This document shows, one piece after another, positions 1 through 36,507 of a DNA stretch of 64,000 nucleotides. Within the stretch, counting starts at the first letter, position 1; each line of letters opens with the position of its first letter. The notes under the pieces were generated by a model. The model saw only the letters and a program-made list of their open reading frames with translations, was not told where the DNA came from and searched no databases. The DNA is from Miltoncostaea oceani (lineage in GTDB: Bacteria > Actinomycetota > Thermoleophilia > Miltoncostaeales > Miltoncostaeaceae), in contig NZ_CP064356.1 in the NCBI RefSeq assembly GCF_018141545.1, forward strand, positions 2,679,001-2,743,000, in the 5' to 3' direction. The position numbers and the translations under genes are program-made.

Positions 1-395
1 GGCGTCGCGGCCGAATGGCCACATGGATCGGAACGTGCGTGGCGACCGGGCTTCCGGGGACGAACCCGGCGGCGGCCGGGTGATCCGCGCTCACGGTCCA
101 AATGGACCTCGGCGTCACGGCCGAATGGTCACGCCGATCAGAACGCCCCTGGCGAACCGCATCTGGGGAACGAACCAGCGACGGCCCGCCGCGGCTCTTG
201 CGCTCATGGTCCAAATGGACCTCGGCGTCACGGCCAAGTGGCCACATCGATCGGACGCCCCTGGCGAACGGCATCCCGGGACGGAACGCGGCGGCGATGG
301 ACCCGTCTCGGAGGTCCGATTGGACCTCGGGCGGCGGTCAATTGGCCGATCACCCGCGGCCGGGGACGGACGTCCGGGGGGCCGGACCGCCGGAG
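1..395. repeat. Intergenic repeat region with ~110-base direct repeats
   Basis: I see no gene in this stretch. A segment beginning CGGCCGAATGG or CGGCCAAGTGG starts at about 8, 118 and 231, so the period is 110-113 bases. Each copy ends in a near-palindrome: GGTCCAAATGGACC at 95-108 and 208-221, GGTCCGATTGGACC at 313-326, with GGTCAATTGGCC at 336-347. These are followed by CTCGGCGTC, which is the reverse complement of the 23-base unit found at 35182-35580. The region lies just beyond the 3' end of the treS gene. The open frames across it look like by-products of the repeat. Confidence 0.75.
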
Positions 396-3300
396 TCAGG
401 CGTCGGTGGGGGCGGCGGGGGGGTTGAGGAGGAGGTCGCGGAGGCCCGTGAGGGCGACGGGGACCCACGTCGGCCGGTTGTTGAGCTCGTAGGTGAGCTC
501 GTAGACGGCCTTCTCGAGGAGGGAGGTGTCGAGCAGGAGGCTGAGGTCGGCGGGGTCGTCCGGGAGCCACGAGCCGCCGGCGGCCGCCTCGAGGTACGAC
601 CCGAGGAACGCCGCGGAGACGCCGTCGTTCCAGGCGCGCCCCCACGCCTCCAGCTCGTGGGCGGCCTCCGAGTCCGGTTCCACGAGACCACGGGCCGACT
701 GGTCGAGGAGGGCCGTCACCGTCGCGTAGTGGAACGACCGCAGCATCCCCGCCACGTCGCGCAGGGGGCTGCGCTTCACCCGGCGGTCACCGAGGGACCG
801 GGCGGGCTCGCCCTCGAAGTCGATGATCATGAAGTCGCGCCCCGTGAACAGCACCTGGCCGAGGTGCAGGTCGCCGTGGCAGCGGATGCGCATCACCGAC
901 AGCGGCCGCCCCGTCAGCGCCTGGAACCGGTCGAGGAGCGAGGCCTCCGACGACAGCAGCATCTCCGCGTCCCCCCGCGGGCCGTCGTCCAGGTCGGGCG
1001 CGGCGTGGCGCAGCATCTCCAGGGCACGGCCCGTCATGTTCCGCAGCGACTGGTACACGCCCCGCTGGAAGTGGGGGGTGAACGGCTCCGGGGTGAGCCC
1101 CGGGTCGATGCCCTCCTGGGCGAACGCCGTGTGCATCTCCGCCACCCGGCGCCCCATCAGCTGCGCCGACTGGATGTACGACCCGACCATCTCGTCGATC
1201 TCGGGCGGGACGACGGCGGCGGCGCGGTCGAGGAGCGGCGCCGACGTGTCCGGGGGACCACCGCCGCCTGCCTCGATGCGCTCCGTCACGATCCGCTCGT
1301 AGAACCGGCCGAGCGCGTCCAGCGTGTACTGCCACGAGTCGCCCTCATTCGGCACGAACTCGTGCATGATCCCGAGCGTCGCGGCCTCCGCGCCCTCCGC
1401 CTGGTAGTCGATGGAGCCCGCCACCCGCGGGGTGCTCCCGAAGCCGGACCGCTCGCTCAGGTACCGCCCCAGCTCCAGGTCGGGGTTGACGCCCGGCTCC
1501 ACCCGGCGGAACAGCTTCAGGATCAGGCTCTGGCCGAAGATCACCGACGTGTTGCTCTGCTCCGCGCGGAACGTCGACGGCTCCGGCGACTCGTCGCCCT
1601 CCAGGGCGGCGCGCAGCGCCGGGGTGGGACGGCCCGTCAGGCGCCCGCCGGCGCTGCCCTTCAATGCCCGGCGGGTGCGGACGACGTCGAGCAGCGCCCG
1701 GCAGACCTCGGGGTCGCTCAGGGCGTCCCCGAGCACCGCGAGGTCACCGCCGCGCCGGCGGATCCGCGCGACGACGCTCCGCGACCCCTCCCCGAGCATG
1801 TACTCCGCCCGCTCGCCCTCCACCAGGACCAGGGGCACCTGGTACGTCTCGGCCTCGCCCTCCGTGAACTCCACCCGCACGATGAGGATGCGGGCCCCCA
1901 TCTGGGACCGCGCGCCCGCGAGGGGCAGCGAGTCGAGGATCGCGACGTTCCGGATCGTGCGGGCCTTCCCCGCGAACCAGCGGCGCCCCGGCAGGAAGCG
2001 GGCGATCGCGCGCTCGAACTCCTCGCGCTGGCGCCCGCCGACGAGCGCGTCGATCGACCCGGTCCCCTCGATCACGGGCGGACCCACGTCGACCTCGTCC
2101 TCCGGCAGCTCGCTCCGCGGCGACTCGATCGCCAGCCAGTAGACGGCGTGGGGGCCGAGCGTCAACAGGTACGGCAGGTCGCCGATCGGCGGGAAGTGGG
2201 TCTGGCCGAACAGCTCGACGGGGGCGGACCCGCGGAACCGCGACAGGTCGAGCTCCACGTACTGCGCGAACCGCGACAGGTTCGCGACGATCAGGACGCT
2301 GCGCTCCTCGTCGCTGCGCAGGTACGCCAGCACCCGGCGGTTCTCGGGGTGGAGGAACTCGAGGTCGCCGCGGCCGAAGACGTCGTAGCGCTTGCGCAAC
2401 GCCAGCATCCGCCGCATCCACCACAGCAGCGACCCGCCGTTCTTCGCCTGCGTCTCGACGTTGACCGTCTCGTAGTGGAACTCGGGGTCGATGATCGGCG
2501 GGAGGAACAGCCGCTGGGGGTTCGCGCGGGAGAACCCGGCGTTGCGGTCGCCCGTCCACTGCATCGGCGTCCGCACCCCGTCGCGGTCACCGAGGTAGAC
2601 GTTGTCGCCCATCCCGATCTCGTCGCCGTAGTAGATGACGGGGGTGCCCGGCAGCGACAGCAGCAGCCCGTTCATCAGCTCGATCTTCGCCCGGTCGTTG
2701 CCGAGCAGCGGGGCGAGGCGGCGGCGGATGCCGAGGTTGATGCGGGCCTCGCGCTCGTGCGCGTAGACCCGGTACATGTAGTCGCGCTCCTCGTCGGTGA
2801 CCATCTCGAGCGTCAGCTCGTCGTGGTTGCGCAGGAACAGCGCCCACTGGCACCCCTCCGGCAGCTCCGGCGTCTGCTGGAGGATGTCGATGATGGGGAA
2901 CCGGTCCTCCATCTGGATCGACATGAACAGCCGCGGCATCAGCGGGAAGTGGAACGCCATGTGGCATTCGTCGCCGTCGCCGAAGTACTCGATGGCGTCC
3001 TCCGGCCACTGGTTCGCCTCGGCGAGCAGCATCCGGTTCGGGAACGCCTCGTCCACGTGGGCGCGGAGCTCCTTCAGGAACCCGTGGGTCTCCGGCAGGT
3101 TCTCGCAGCTGGTGCGCTCCCGCTCGTAGAGGTACGGCACCGCGTCGAGGCGCAGGCCGTCGATGCCTATGCGGAACCAGTGGTCCACCTGGGACATCAG
3201 GGCGCGCCGCACCTCGGCGTTCTCGAAGTTCAGGTCCGGCTGGTGGGAGTAGAAGCGGTGCCAGTAGTACTGGCCCGCCACCGGGTCCCACGCCCAGTTC

Positions 3301-3830
3301 GATGTCTCGAAGTCCTTGAAGATGATGCGCGCGTCCCGGTACAGGTCGGGCGTGTCGCTCCACACGTAGAAGTTGCGCCAGCGGCTCCCCGCCGGCGCAC
3401 GCCGCGCCCGCTGGAACCACGGGTGCTGGTCGGAGGTGTGGTTCAGCACCAGCTCGGTGATGACCCGCAGGCCGCGCTCGTGGGCGGCGCGGATGAGCCG
3501 GGCGACGTCGCGCATCGACCCGTACGACGGGTTCACCGACCGGTAGTCGGCGATGTCGTAGCCGTCGTCCCGCAGCGGCGAGGGGTAGAACGGCAGCAGC
3601 CAGATCGCCGTGACGCCGAGGTCGTGCAGGTAGTCGAGCTTCGAGATCAGCCCGCGGAAGTCGCCGATGCCGTCCTCGTCGCTGTCCATGAACGAGCGGA
3701 CGTGCAGCTCGTAGATGACCGCGTCGCGGTACCAGTCGGGCGAGTCGTCCCCCGGCGGGGTGTGCTCTCGGGGGCTCACGGCGCGCATGCTAGTCGAGCG
3801 CTGCGCGCGGTTGTCGGGCGGGGCGGGCAC
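396..3830 (-). CDS. treS: Trehalose synthase / maltokinase fusion (TreS-Pep2)
   Basis: This 1144-residue protein joins two enzymes of the trehalose-maltose-glycogen route. Residues from about 30 to 560 form a GH13 alpha-amylase-type domain that interconverts maltose and trehalose; WYRDAVIYELHVRSF opens it, RLDAV carries the nucleophile Asp, LLAEANQWPED the acid/base Glu and FLRNHDELTLE the third acid. Residues from about 600 to the end form a maltokinase: RWFAGKARTI is the N-terminal cap and RCHGDLHLGQVL with MIIDFEGEP the kinase catalytic region, which makes maltose 1-phosphate for GlgE. A shorter start at 3788 (MRAVSPREHT) is equally possible; neither start has a clear ribosome site. Trehalose synthase activity is known for this family; the fused layout is seen directly. 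Confidence 0.93.
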   Translation of the reverse strand: MPAPPDNRAQRSTSMRAVSPREHTPPGDDSPDWYRDAVIYELHVRSFMDSDEDGIGDFRGLISKLDYLHDLGVTAIWLLPFYPSPLRDDGYDIADYRSVNPSYGSMRDVARLIRAAHERGLRVITELVLNHTSDQHPWFQRARRAPAGSRWRNFYVWSDTPDLYRDARIIFKDFETSNWAWDPVAGQYYWHRFYSHQPDLNFENAEVRRALMSQVDHWFRIGIDGLRLDAVPYLYERERTSCENLPETHGFLKELRAHVDEAFPNRMLLAEANQWPEDAIEYFGDGDECHMAFHFPLMPRLFMSIQMEDRFPIIDILQQTPELPEGCQWALFLRNHDELTLEMVTDEERDYMYRVYAHEREARINLGIRRRLAPLLGNDRAKIELMNGLLLSLPGTPVIYYGDEIGMGDNVYLGDRDGVRTPMQWTGDRNAGFSRANPQRLFLPPIIDPEFHYETVNVETQAKNGGSLLWWMRRMLALRKRYDVFGRGDLEFLHPENRRVLAYLRSDEERSVLIVANLSRFAQYVELDLSRFRGSAPVELFGQTHFPPIGDLPYLLTLGPHAVYWLAIESPRSELPEDEVDVGPPVIEGTGSIDALVGGRQREEFERAIARFLPGRRWFAGKARTIRNVAILDSLPLAGARSQMGARILIVRVEFTEGEAETYQVPLVLVEGERAEYMLGEGSRSVVARIRRRGGDLAVLGDALSDPEVCRALLDVVRTRRALKGSAGGRLTGRPTPALRAALEGDESPEPSTFRAEQSNTSVIFGQSLILKLFRRVEPGVNPDLELGRYLSERSGFGSTPRVAGSIDYQAEGAEAATLGIMHEFVPNEGDSWQYTLDALGRFYERIVTERIEAGGGGPPDTSAPLLDRAAAVVPPEIDEMVGSYIQSAQLMGRRVAEMHTAFAQEGIDPGLTPEPFTPHFQRGVYQSLRNMTGRALEMLRHAAPDLDDGPRGDAEMLLSSEASLLDRFQALTGRPLSVMRIRCHGDLHLGQVLFTGRDFMIIDFEGEPARSLGDRRVKRSPLRDVAGMLRSFHYATVTALLDQSARGLVEPDSEAAHELEAWGRAWNDGVSAAFLGSYLEAAAGGSWLPDDPADLSLLLDTSLLEKAVYELTYELNNRPTWVPVALTGLRDLLLNPPAAPTDA

Positions 3831-34187: not shown

Positions 34188-35126
34188 ATGAGCGGGATGG
34201 ACGACCTCGATCAGCGGATCGACGCCCTCTTCGGCGGTGCCCCCGGGGACTTCACGGCGGGCCGGGACGCGTTGGCGAAGGAGTTGCGTGCCGCGGGCGA
34301 CCGGGAGGGCGCGGACCGTGTGCGTGCGTTGCGCCGGCCGACGCGGCTGGCGGCCGAGCTGAACCGCATCGCACGGGACGCCCCGGACGGGCTCGCCGCG
34401 GTGTTCGCGGCGGAGGGGGACCTGGCCACCGCGCAGGCGGCGGTGCTGGACGGCACCGGGGACGCGGGGGCCCTCGGTGCCGCGGGCGCCGCGGAGAACG
34501 CGGCGGTCGCGGCGTTGTCCGACGATCCCGCCGTGCGCGCCGCGTTGCGGACGGCGGCGCGCGACGAGGGGCTGCGGGACGACCTCCGGGCAGGGCGCCT
34601 CTCGGCGGATCCCGAGGCCGGCGGCGGGGACGGCCTCTTCGCGTTCGGGCCCCCGCCGTCGGGTCCGCGCACGACGCGTGGCGGTGCGAAGGCCGGGGCG
34701 GCGAAGGGGGGTGCGGGGAAGAAGGCCGACGCCCCCGAGCCGGCGGAGGCCCGGGAGGACGGCGGGGACGGGGACGGGGACGAGCTCGCGACGGCGCGGG
34801 CGCGGCGGGCGCGGCGGGCCGCCCTCGAGGAGGCACGGGGGCTGGTGGAGCGGGCGGAGGAGGCCGAGCGGGAGGCGGCGGACGCGCACGCGTCGGCCGC
34901 CGAGGAGGCGGCGCGGGCGCGCAAGGCGCGCGACGCGTGCGCCGCGGCCCTGGAGGACGCGCGCGCCGCCCTGGAGGCGGCGGAGGCGGAGGATGCCGAC
35001 GCCCGCCGCCGCGCCGAGGCCGCCGACGCCGACGAGGCGCGAGCGAAGGACGCGGCCGACGCCGCCGCCCGACTCGCCACCGACGCCCGGGAGGCCCTCA
35101 CCGCCGCCGAGGCCGACGACCCCTGA
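34188..35126 (+). CDS. Ala/Glu-rich coiled-coil protein of unknown function
   Basis: The 312-residue product starts MSGMDDLDQRIDALFGGAPG. Residues 1-110 are helical and may form a small domain (FTAGRDALAKELRAAGDREG). A Gly/Lys-rich linker follows and the last 110 residues are almost wholly Ala, Glu, Arg and Asp in a heptad-like pattern, a long coiled coil (EEARGLVERAEEAEREAAD). It has no membrane helix or signal. The family is not recognised; similar proteins in actinobacteria are annotated only as hypothetical. The 23-base repeat array begins 56 bases after its stop. Confidence 0.65.
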   Translation: MSGMDDLDQRIDALFGGAPGDFTAGRDALAKELRAAGDREGADRVRALRRPTRLAAELNRIARDAPDGLAAVFAAEGDLATAQAAVLDGTGDAGALGAAGAAENAAVAALSDDPAVRAALRTAARDEGLRDDLRAGRLSADPEAGGGDGLFAFGPPPSGPRTTRGGAKAGAAKGGAGKKADAPEPAEAREDGGDGDGDELATARARRARRAALEEARGLVERAEEAEREAADAHASAAEEAARARKARDACAAALEDARAALEAAEAEDADARRRAEAADADEARAKDAADAAARLATDAREALTAAEADDP

Positions 35127-35181
35127 GCCCACGGGTCGGACCGTGGCCCCGGGAGCCGCCTCCCCCAATCCCGTTCCATCG

Positions 35182-35580
35182 TCCACTTGGCCGTTGCGCC
35201 GAGGTCCATCTGGACGCGACGCCGAGGTCCGATTGGACGCGACGCCGAGGTCCACTTGGCCGCGTCCCGAAGGTCCATTTGGCCGTGGCCCCGAGGTCCA
35301 CTTGGCCGTGGCCCCGAGGTCCACTTGGCCGTGGCTCCGAGGTCCATTTGGATGCGACGCCGAGGTCCGGTTGGACGCGACGCCGAGGTCCACTTGGTCC
35401 CGAAGGTCCAATTGGCCGCGCCCCCGACGTTCATTTGAACGCGATGCCGAGGTCCATTTGGACGCGATGCCGAGGTCCACTTGGCCGTGGCCCCGCGGTC
35501 CACTTCGCCGGTCGCGTCGCCGAGGTCCACTTGGACGCGACGTCGAGGTCCAATTGGACCCGACCCCGGATCCCGTCGCC
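35182..35580. repeat. 23-base tandem repeat array (about 17 units)
   Basis: Units begin at 35182, 35205, 35228, 35251, 35274, 35297, 35320, 35343, 35366, 35389, 35407, 35430, 35453, 35476, 35499, 35526 and 35549; nearly all steps are exactly 23. The unit is TCCANNTGG followed by A or C and a 13-base GC-rich segment ending CCGAGG. Two types alternate: TGGA with CGCGACGCCGAGG, and TGGC with CGTGGCCCCGAGG. One unit reads TTCATTTGAA, both arms changed together. The array lies between convergent genes. The 23-base period keeps all frames partly open, so long frames crossing it are not genes. Confidence 0.92.
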
Positions 35581-35697: not shown

Positions 35698-36507
35698 TCA
35701 CCCGGGTTCGGGGCCTTCCCCGCCACGGAACTTGCGCCAGTCGGCGGGGCGCTTCTCCTGGAAGGAGGCGATCCCCTCCGCCGGCTCGACGCCGTGGACG
35801 TGGTTGAGGGCCACCAACTCCAACCCATGCTGGACGGCGCCATAGAGCTGGTCGGTCTGGGCGTTCAACGCGATCTTCGCCAACCGCAGGCCCTGGGGGC
35901 TGCGGCGGAGGATCTGGTCGCACCACGCATCGACCTCGGCGTCGAGGTCCCCGTCGGGGACGACCTTGTTCACCAGGCCCATCTGGAGGGCCTCCTCGGC
36001 GGTGTACTGGCGGGTGAGGTAGAGGATCTCCCGGGCCTTCTTCTCCCCGACCGTCGCGGGCAGGAGCTGGCACCCCCACCACAGGGGGGCCGACCCGATC
36101 TTCGGGCCCGCCTGGCCGAAGCGGCCGGACTCCCCCGTGATCGTGAGGTCGCACAACACATTGAGTTCGTTGCCGCCGCCGATGCAGTAGCCGCGGACCT
36201 TCACCACGATCGGCTTGCCGTTGTTGCGGATCGCCAGGCCCAGGCGGTCGTGGAGGTGGTGCAGGGCCCGCTTCTGGGCGAGGGTGCGGGTCGGGTCGCG
36301 GACGTCGCCGCCGACGCAGAACGCCCGGTCCCCCGCCCCGGTGAAGACGATCACCCCGACCGCCTCGTCGTCGGCGGCGGCCTCGAAGGCCTCGGCGAGT
36401 TCCCGGATCGTCTGGGAGCGGAACGCGTTCAGGCGGTCGGGCCGGTTGATGGTGATCGTCGCCCGGCCACCTGCGACCTCGTAGAGGATGTCCTCGAAAT
36501 CGGGCAC
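35698..36507 (-). CDS. Enoyl-CoA hydratase/isomerase family protein (BadI/MenB-like)
   Basis: The 269-residue protein is a crotonase-fold enzyme acting on acyl-CoA. The CoA-binding and oxyanion parts are VFTGAGDRAFCVGGDV and VVKVRGYCIGGGNELNVLCD. The later region FGQAGPKIGSAPLWWGCQLL and EKKAREILYLTRQYTAEEAL resembles ring-opening or ring-closing members such as BadI (2-ketocyclohexanecarboxyl-CoA hydrolase) and MenB. Which reaction it performs cannot be told. It is divergent from the 36639 gene across a region with two palindromes. Confidence 0.85.
   Translation of the reverse strand: MPDFEDILYEVAGGRATITINRPDRLNAFRSQTIRELAEAFEAAADDEAVGVIVFTGAGDRAFCVGGDVRDPTRTLAQKRALHHLHDRLGLAIRNNGKPIVVKVRGYCIGGGNELNVLCDLTITGESGRFGQAGPKIGSAPLWWGCQLLPATVGEKKAREILYLTRQYTAEEALQMGLVNKVVPDGDLDAEVDAWCDQILRRSPQGLRLAKIALNAQTDQLYGAVQHGLELVALNHVHGVEPAEGIASFQEKRPADWRKFRGGEGPEPG

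Follow-up and report, generated by a model that had tools for sequence, protein, structure and literature searches.

Site-specific markers of large chromosome regions (MatP, SlmA, Noc, ParB) are known from few bacteria. The matS consensus, read by MatP, is GTGACRNYGTCAC. Noc sites are dispersed palindromes with a chromosomal position bias, and both SlmA and Noc sites avoid the terminus. Among repeats, REP/BIME elements are stem-loop units with a GTAG-type signature and a RAYT, and plasmid iterons and centromere repeats are direct repeats in tandem, bound by proteins and about two helical turns long. In Escherichia coli, matS is reported to be a 13-bp site present in 23 copies over 800 kb (PMC3330122), and SlmA sites are reported to be dispersed palindromes with biased positions (PMC3116907). 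The BrickBuilt MITE of Porphyromonas gingivalis has a 23-nt tandem unit with the consensus AGAYCATARTATCCTCTCRTRTG, IS5-like terminal inverted repeats and a leader and tail, and it is found in about 19 intergenic copies per genome (PMC4596501).

We analysed a window of 64,000 nucleotides from the chromosome of Miltoncostaea oceani (genome G000), in which an earlier note had pointed out about 17 palindromic units, nearly all 23 bases apart, first seen at 35182-35580. With genes called by our own codon-bias script, the array and its surroundings are the following:

34188..35126, + strand: array-flanking gene, Ala/Glu-rich, with about 56 bp between its 3' end and the first core
35177..35566, + strand: type I array, unit approximately GAGGTCCANNTGG[AC]CGNNNCNCC, in the gap between two convergent genes
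35425..35447, + strand: double-change unit TTCATTTGAA of this array
35698..36507, - strand: convergent array-flanking gene, enoyl-CoA hydratase/isomerase (PF00378)

The 17 units have a period of 23, and 14 of the 16 steps between them measure exactly 23 bases, the other two being 18 and 27. Tandem Repeats Finder gave the same period, with 16.9 copies, and we found 23 pairs of sites at 23 bp with at most 3 mismatches in the window, against 0.07 expected from dinucleotide shuffles; the regular spacing is therefore real. The exact motif TCCANNTGG is present in 13 of the 17 units, the remaining four reading TCCGATTGG, TCCGGTTGG, TTCATTTGA and TCCACTTCG. Eight of the 17 have a dyad that fails at the +5/-5 pair, where TCCA (or TCCAxTTC) stands opposite GC or CC (right side TGGC or CGCC). 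The linked variation of arms and spacers that had been noticed earlier is also real, the TGGA units mostly having a CGCGAYG-like spacer, and it is a residue of local duplication. A coding origin of the array was rejected, because the period of 23 is not divisible by 3 and the units sit in a gap. In a global three-unit scan, repeats of period 21 and 24, which are probably coding, dominate among the matches listed. A Pfam search with the gene at 34188..35126 returned no match.

The same unit had also been reported as inverted at positions 1-350. Copies are indeed present there in the opposite orientation, but they form 23-bp pairs about 110 bp apart and not a continuous array:

19..26, no strand assigned: lone CCACATGG core at the left edge of this left-edge cluster
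95..131, - strand: 23-bp palindrome pair, GGTCCAAATGGACC and a degenerate CGGCCGAATGG
208..244, - strand: 23-bp palindrome pair, GGTCCAAATGGACC and CGGCCAAGTGGCC
312..350, - strand: GGTCCGATTGGACC and GGTCAATTGGCC, a degenerate pair recognised by eye, with one member also detected as a site
396..3788, - strand: gene adjoining the cluster, an alpha-amylase/maltokinase-type fusion

The convergent partner of this last gene is a TetR regulator just to the left of the window (L087:8335-8922).

Sites of M. oceani and of the sister species G003 have the core CCA-NN-TGG in common, and their arms are of two types: type I, GKCCANNTGGMC, to which the window array belongs, and type II, GCGCCANNTGGCGC, with GCGCC arms. 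Of 259 array cores, 232 (90%) have AA, AT, TT, CT or AG as their centre, a set without pyrimidine-purine steps, compared with 17 of 409 other CCANNTGG occurrences in the same DNA (4%; Fisher p ~1e-124). This preference suggests that a stiff centre with a narrow groove is read indirectly. No earlier description of the motif turned up in our literature searches.

A genome-wide search, as proposed in the earlier note, revealed about 27 intergenic clusters of similar arrays with 23-base spacing on the 3.68-Mb chromosome (C1; dnaA at base 66). Strict CCANNTGG pairs at 23 bp number 81, every one of them on C1; none was found on the 816-kb (C2) and 47-kb (C3) replicons, and none of the 81 places, all of which were listed, lies between 2.84 and 3.68 Mb of C1. 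The density peaks at 2.52-2.84 Mb, with 12 of the 27 loci, and one gap holds at most about 20 sites. Of the 24 G000 loci that could be classified, 14 lie in convergent gaps; in evenly spaced sample stretches, used as background, this is so for 10 of 116 gaps of at least 100 bp (Fisher p 3e-7). Many G003 sites are in tandem or divergent gaps. The genes flanking the sampled loci are unrelated housekeeping genes. Such scattered chromosomal loci, with none on the two smaller replicons, differ from plasmid iterons and centromeres, and the iteron-type setting of a plasmid replication initiator or partition gene as neighbour was not found at the sampled loci. At L073:4275-4830, and also at the G003 loci L097, L100 and L101, we observed that 23-bp pairs recur every 80-105 bp, which is a second, higher-order period. 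A 14-unit array lies beside L078 (G000:C1:1623500-1632500), a stretch with a GC content of 58%, compared with about 74% elsewhere, and likely a foreign island.

We then considered the spacing itself. In a sample partly fetched with 23-bp patterns, exact A-tract-centred sites of G000 are 23 bp apart at 23 loci, 22 bp at six and 24 bp at four; elsewhere the distance is solely 23 bp, at 14 loci of G003, 14 of G001 and G002 together and five of other genera. The clean evidence comes from spacing-blind scans: a scan for single GGTCCANNTGG sites in G000 again gave 23-bp steps, and one for single GCGCCANNTGGCGC sites in G003 gave a distance of 23 at four separate loci and of 46 at one. Multiples of 23 bp are also over-represented in G000. 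Since the spacers between paired sites are unrelated from locus to locus, the common 23-bp step does not come from slippage, and slippage alone was rejected as an explanation for an equal step at independent loci. The suggestion that the sites would lie on one face of the DNA is only approximately correct, as 23 bp corresponds to 2.19 turns, each unit being rotated by about 69 degrees relative to the last.

The array is not confined to one genome, which excludes the combination of absence from relatives and slippage only that the earlier note had named as its refutation; sites are present in three other species of the genus, repeatedly in the orthologous gap. Indeed, the three sister species hold 20, 19 and 15 strict CCANNTGG pairs at 23 bp, where a reversed-pattern control gave zero (0-2 with G000 counted in), and other families mostly have chance numbers. 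The stiff-centred exceptions are G007 of the same family, which has four pairs, and three genomes of another family, namely G214, G194 and G216, the last with a four-unit array; four of the five G214 pairs are inside called genes and these may be due to chance. Among 396 genomes sampled from the phylum, none was a further clear case of the type II pair. A gene of another genus in the family is immediately followed by three 23-bp units related to GGTCCAGATGTATCGTTGAACGT (L106:4830-4900, G009:C86). Arrays of 22 bp such as TCCAACTGGGAAATAAAAATTTTCCAACTGG, on several Bacteroidaceae MAG contigs (L113, L146, L162, L175, L189, L214), look alike, with no evidence of kinship.

Several array gaps are orthologous between species (L083/L101, L085/L099, L088/L104/L361, L079/L350 and L354/L357), and L074/L351 and L090/L345 probably are as well. 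Between G000 and G003, we observed five coincidences of orthologous gaps, two of them less certain, against about 0.16 expected. At L079/L350 and L354/L357, the arms are of type I in one species and of type II in the other, and the core pair and the 23-bp distance are kept. Array gain and loss also occur, since the array occupies another gap at L073/L103 and L080/L356, and so does copying between loci, since some of them, such as L073 and L082, have inter-pair sequence in common. At L079:2200-4250 (G000:C1, about 1.660-1.662 Mb), an insertion of about 2 kb that looks like an integrated element separates a tRNA-Pro gene from the site pair and is accompanied by a repeat of the tRNA 3' end; it is absent in G003 (L350).

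Such data could also be read in terms of dispersed extragenic repeats, REP/BIME- or MITE-like as in BrickBuilt, which would have been copied into tolerant convergent gaps and grown by slippage, with any function, such as gyrase binding or a role in transcript ends, being secondary. The intergenic and convergent bias fits this explanation, as convergent placement could simply reflect insertion tolerance; in addition, spacers are locally homogenised within arrays, inter-pair sequence is partly common to different loci, L080/L356 and L073/L103 likely include empty sites, and BrickBuilt is likewise a 23-nt intergenic minisatellite (PMC4596501). By its many-copy intergenic tandem array, BrickBuilt is the closest structural analogue of the arrays described here. 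However, its consensus, terminal inverted repeats, leader and tail are all lacking here, and the masked flanks of the arrays share scattered short matches only. The REP/BIME of E. coli are also palindromic repeats of convergent and 3' gaps, but the present sites are without hairpin constraint and have a fixed 23-bp pairing. Moreover, orthologous loci at about 58-94% protein identity keep the pair with changed arms and spacers, the 23-bp step is found with unrelated spacers, and the site types depend on position. We consider this explanation rather unlikely, though a serious one.

The earlier note had also envisaged a structured 3' element, with compensatory changes that keep the dyad, and tandem hairpins could end or stabilise convergent transcripts. 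Consistent with this, the arrays occupy convergent gaps, near 3' ends in G000, and the window array folds somewhat better than its shuffles on both strands (z -2.8 and -3.2), as is expected of any palindrome array. A comparison of Rfam models with the window gave 0 matches. When we examined the base next to the core, the left side had K and the right side M, each independently of the other in G000 (TA 58, GA 51, TC 44, GC 38; z=0.0), so that the ±5 pairing is missing in about half of the sites. Degenerate units located exactly 23 bp from a good one mostly have changes on one side only, and their double changes are no more frequent than independence predicts (11 seen for 15.7 expected at ±2, 3 seen for 8.7 expected at ±4). 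The TTCATTTGAA double change of the window has a single counterpart in the sample, whereas one-sided C-to-T or G-to-A changes at that pair number 36. The proposed compensation is thus not borne out. At ±6 the two sides covary, matching the split between type I and type II arms. Extended hairpins formed by the whole pair gave a weak signal in G003 and G001/G002 (z 3.3-3.5) and the reverse in G000 (z -5.6); they were rejected, since symmetric arm types can explain the weak signal and G000 shows the opposite. In a 3' hairpin, the unpaired loop would be formed by the constrained ANNT centre, and the tandem and divergent gaps of G003 also speak against such hairpins. The independence at ±5 and the lack of an excess of double changes in G000 argue against an RNA hairpin, which we regard as very improbable, and for half-site recognition by a DNA-binding dimer: the dyad would be present because a dimer reads two like half-sites and not because pairing is preserved.

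On balance, the array is probably a cluster of candidate sites for a dimeric or higher-order chromosome-binding protein, whose most likely job would be chromosome organisation. The protein-binding array that had been proposed earlier is supported by the 23-bp step at dozens of independent loci, the unrelated spacers, the stiff centre, the half-site variation and the conservation in orthologous gaps. The sites, their exact spacing, their conservation and their intergenic and positional bias are observed; the protein, its cooperative binding and its organising function are inferred. A dimer (or a higher-order form) would read the half-site KCCA and would need a stiff, A-tract-like 2-bp centre, and neighbouring dimers would dock 23 bp apart, presumably in contact with each other. 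The minimal site would then be a pair, and long arrays would be expanded pairs. Type I would cluster between genes along the chromosome arms and type II, with its GCGCC arms, would mark the terminus region. The neighbours are unrelated housekeeping genes, and the role is probably tied to chromosome position and not to them; domain marking, bridging or segregation, as for MatP-matS, SlmA or Noc sites, would be the most likely job, not regulation of the neighbouring genes.

Operators of a single transcription regulator with a wide regulon would also be palindromes with half-site degeneracy, as is typical of HTH dimers, but the sites are in convergent gaps far from promoters, beside unrelated genes and as many as about 20 per gap, which makes such operators very improbable. 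Unrelated genomes have similar TCCANNTGG arrays of 22-23 bp, which had suggested terminal repeats of IS21-type or other transposons; this reading was rejected as extremely improbable, since the best match to the IS21 transposase (IstA/IstB) in G000 scored 41.8 bits against a cut-off of 160, ten candidate ORFs near the look-alike arrays have no transposase domain and a paired-end pattern is absent.

The two types of site differ in position. We placed the terminus from dnaA and gene-strand bias, the GC skew being weak. In G003, the strand bias changes direction in the stretch from about 1.55 to 1.72 Mb, with the dnaA antipode at 1.685 Mb. Stiff-centred type II sites occupy 13 non-coding loci of this genome, 11 of which are in 1.33-1.86 Mb (530 kb, 16% of G003; p ~1e-7, the positional windows being chosen after the data were seen); a fourteenth locus is near the origin, in a coding region. 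Paired type I sites are confined to 0.55-1.12 and 2.42-2.64 Mb, and the two types differ in their distance from the dnaA antipode (p=1.4e-5). Loci less than 500 kb from dnaA are depleted (1 of 30, against 8.9 expected). In G000, only two loci are stiff-centred type II, at 1.80 and 1.93 Mb (antipode 1.84), and the zoning is much weaker than in G003, blurred because type I also comes near the terminus, reaching within 70-200 kb of the antipode. The zoning was tested in these two genomes only, the MAG relatives being unordered.

Like matS, a short palindrome found some 20-25 times around the terminus, the type II sites of G003 are dispersed and largely independent of the function of neighbouring genes. 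Confinement to the terminus holds for type II (the 11 of 13 loci in G003 and both loci in G000, near the antipode) but not for type I, including the window array. The matS consensus is not found in these sites, which read GKCCANNTGGMC or GCGCCANNTGGCGC; matS occurs neither in pairs 23 bp apart nor in arrays, and in the present case the arms are covered by a second type of site. SlmA and Noc sites are also dispersed palindromes biased in position along the chromosome, but without long arrays at a fixed 23-bp step. By analogy, matS, SlmA and Noc sites would be the closest functional analogues.

We tentatively propose, as a possibility that goes further, that the two related palindromes encode chromosome position and may be read by the same or paralogous proteins as dimer pairs 23 bp apart, one for the terminus and the other for the arms, with hardly any near the origin. 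Macrodomains might thus be marked in a manner unlike MatP-matS, the 23-bp pair being shared with a few other genera of the class. A conserved, position-zoned palindrome system with a fixed 23-bp pair would give a direct handle on chromosome organisation in this lineage, and the split into arm and terminus types makes it testable how the cell discriminates terminus from arm. A search for dif on the main chromosome found none; on the 816-kb replicon, a dif-like site, CGCTAATATGCATTATGTCAAG, lies near the middle (L393, G000:C2:441033-441054).
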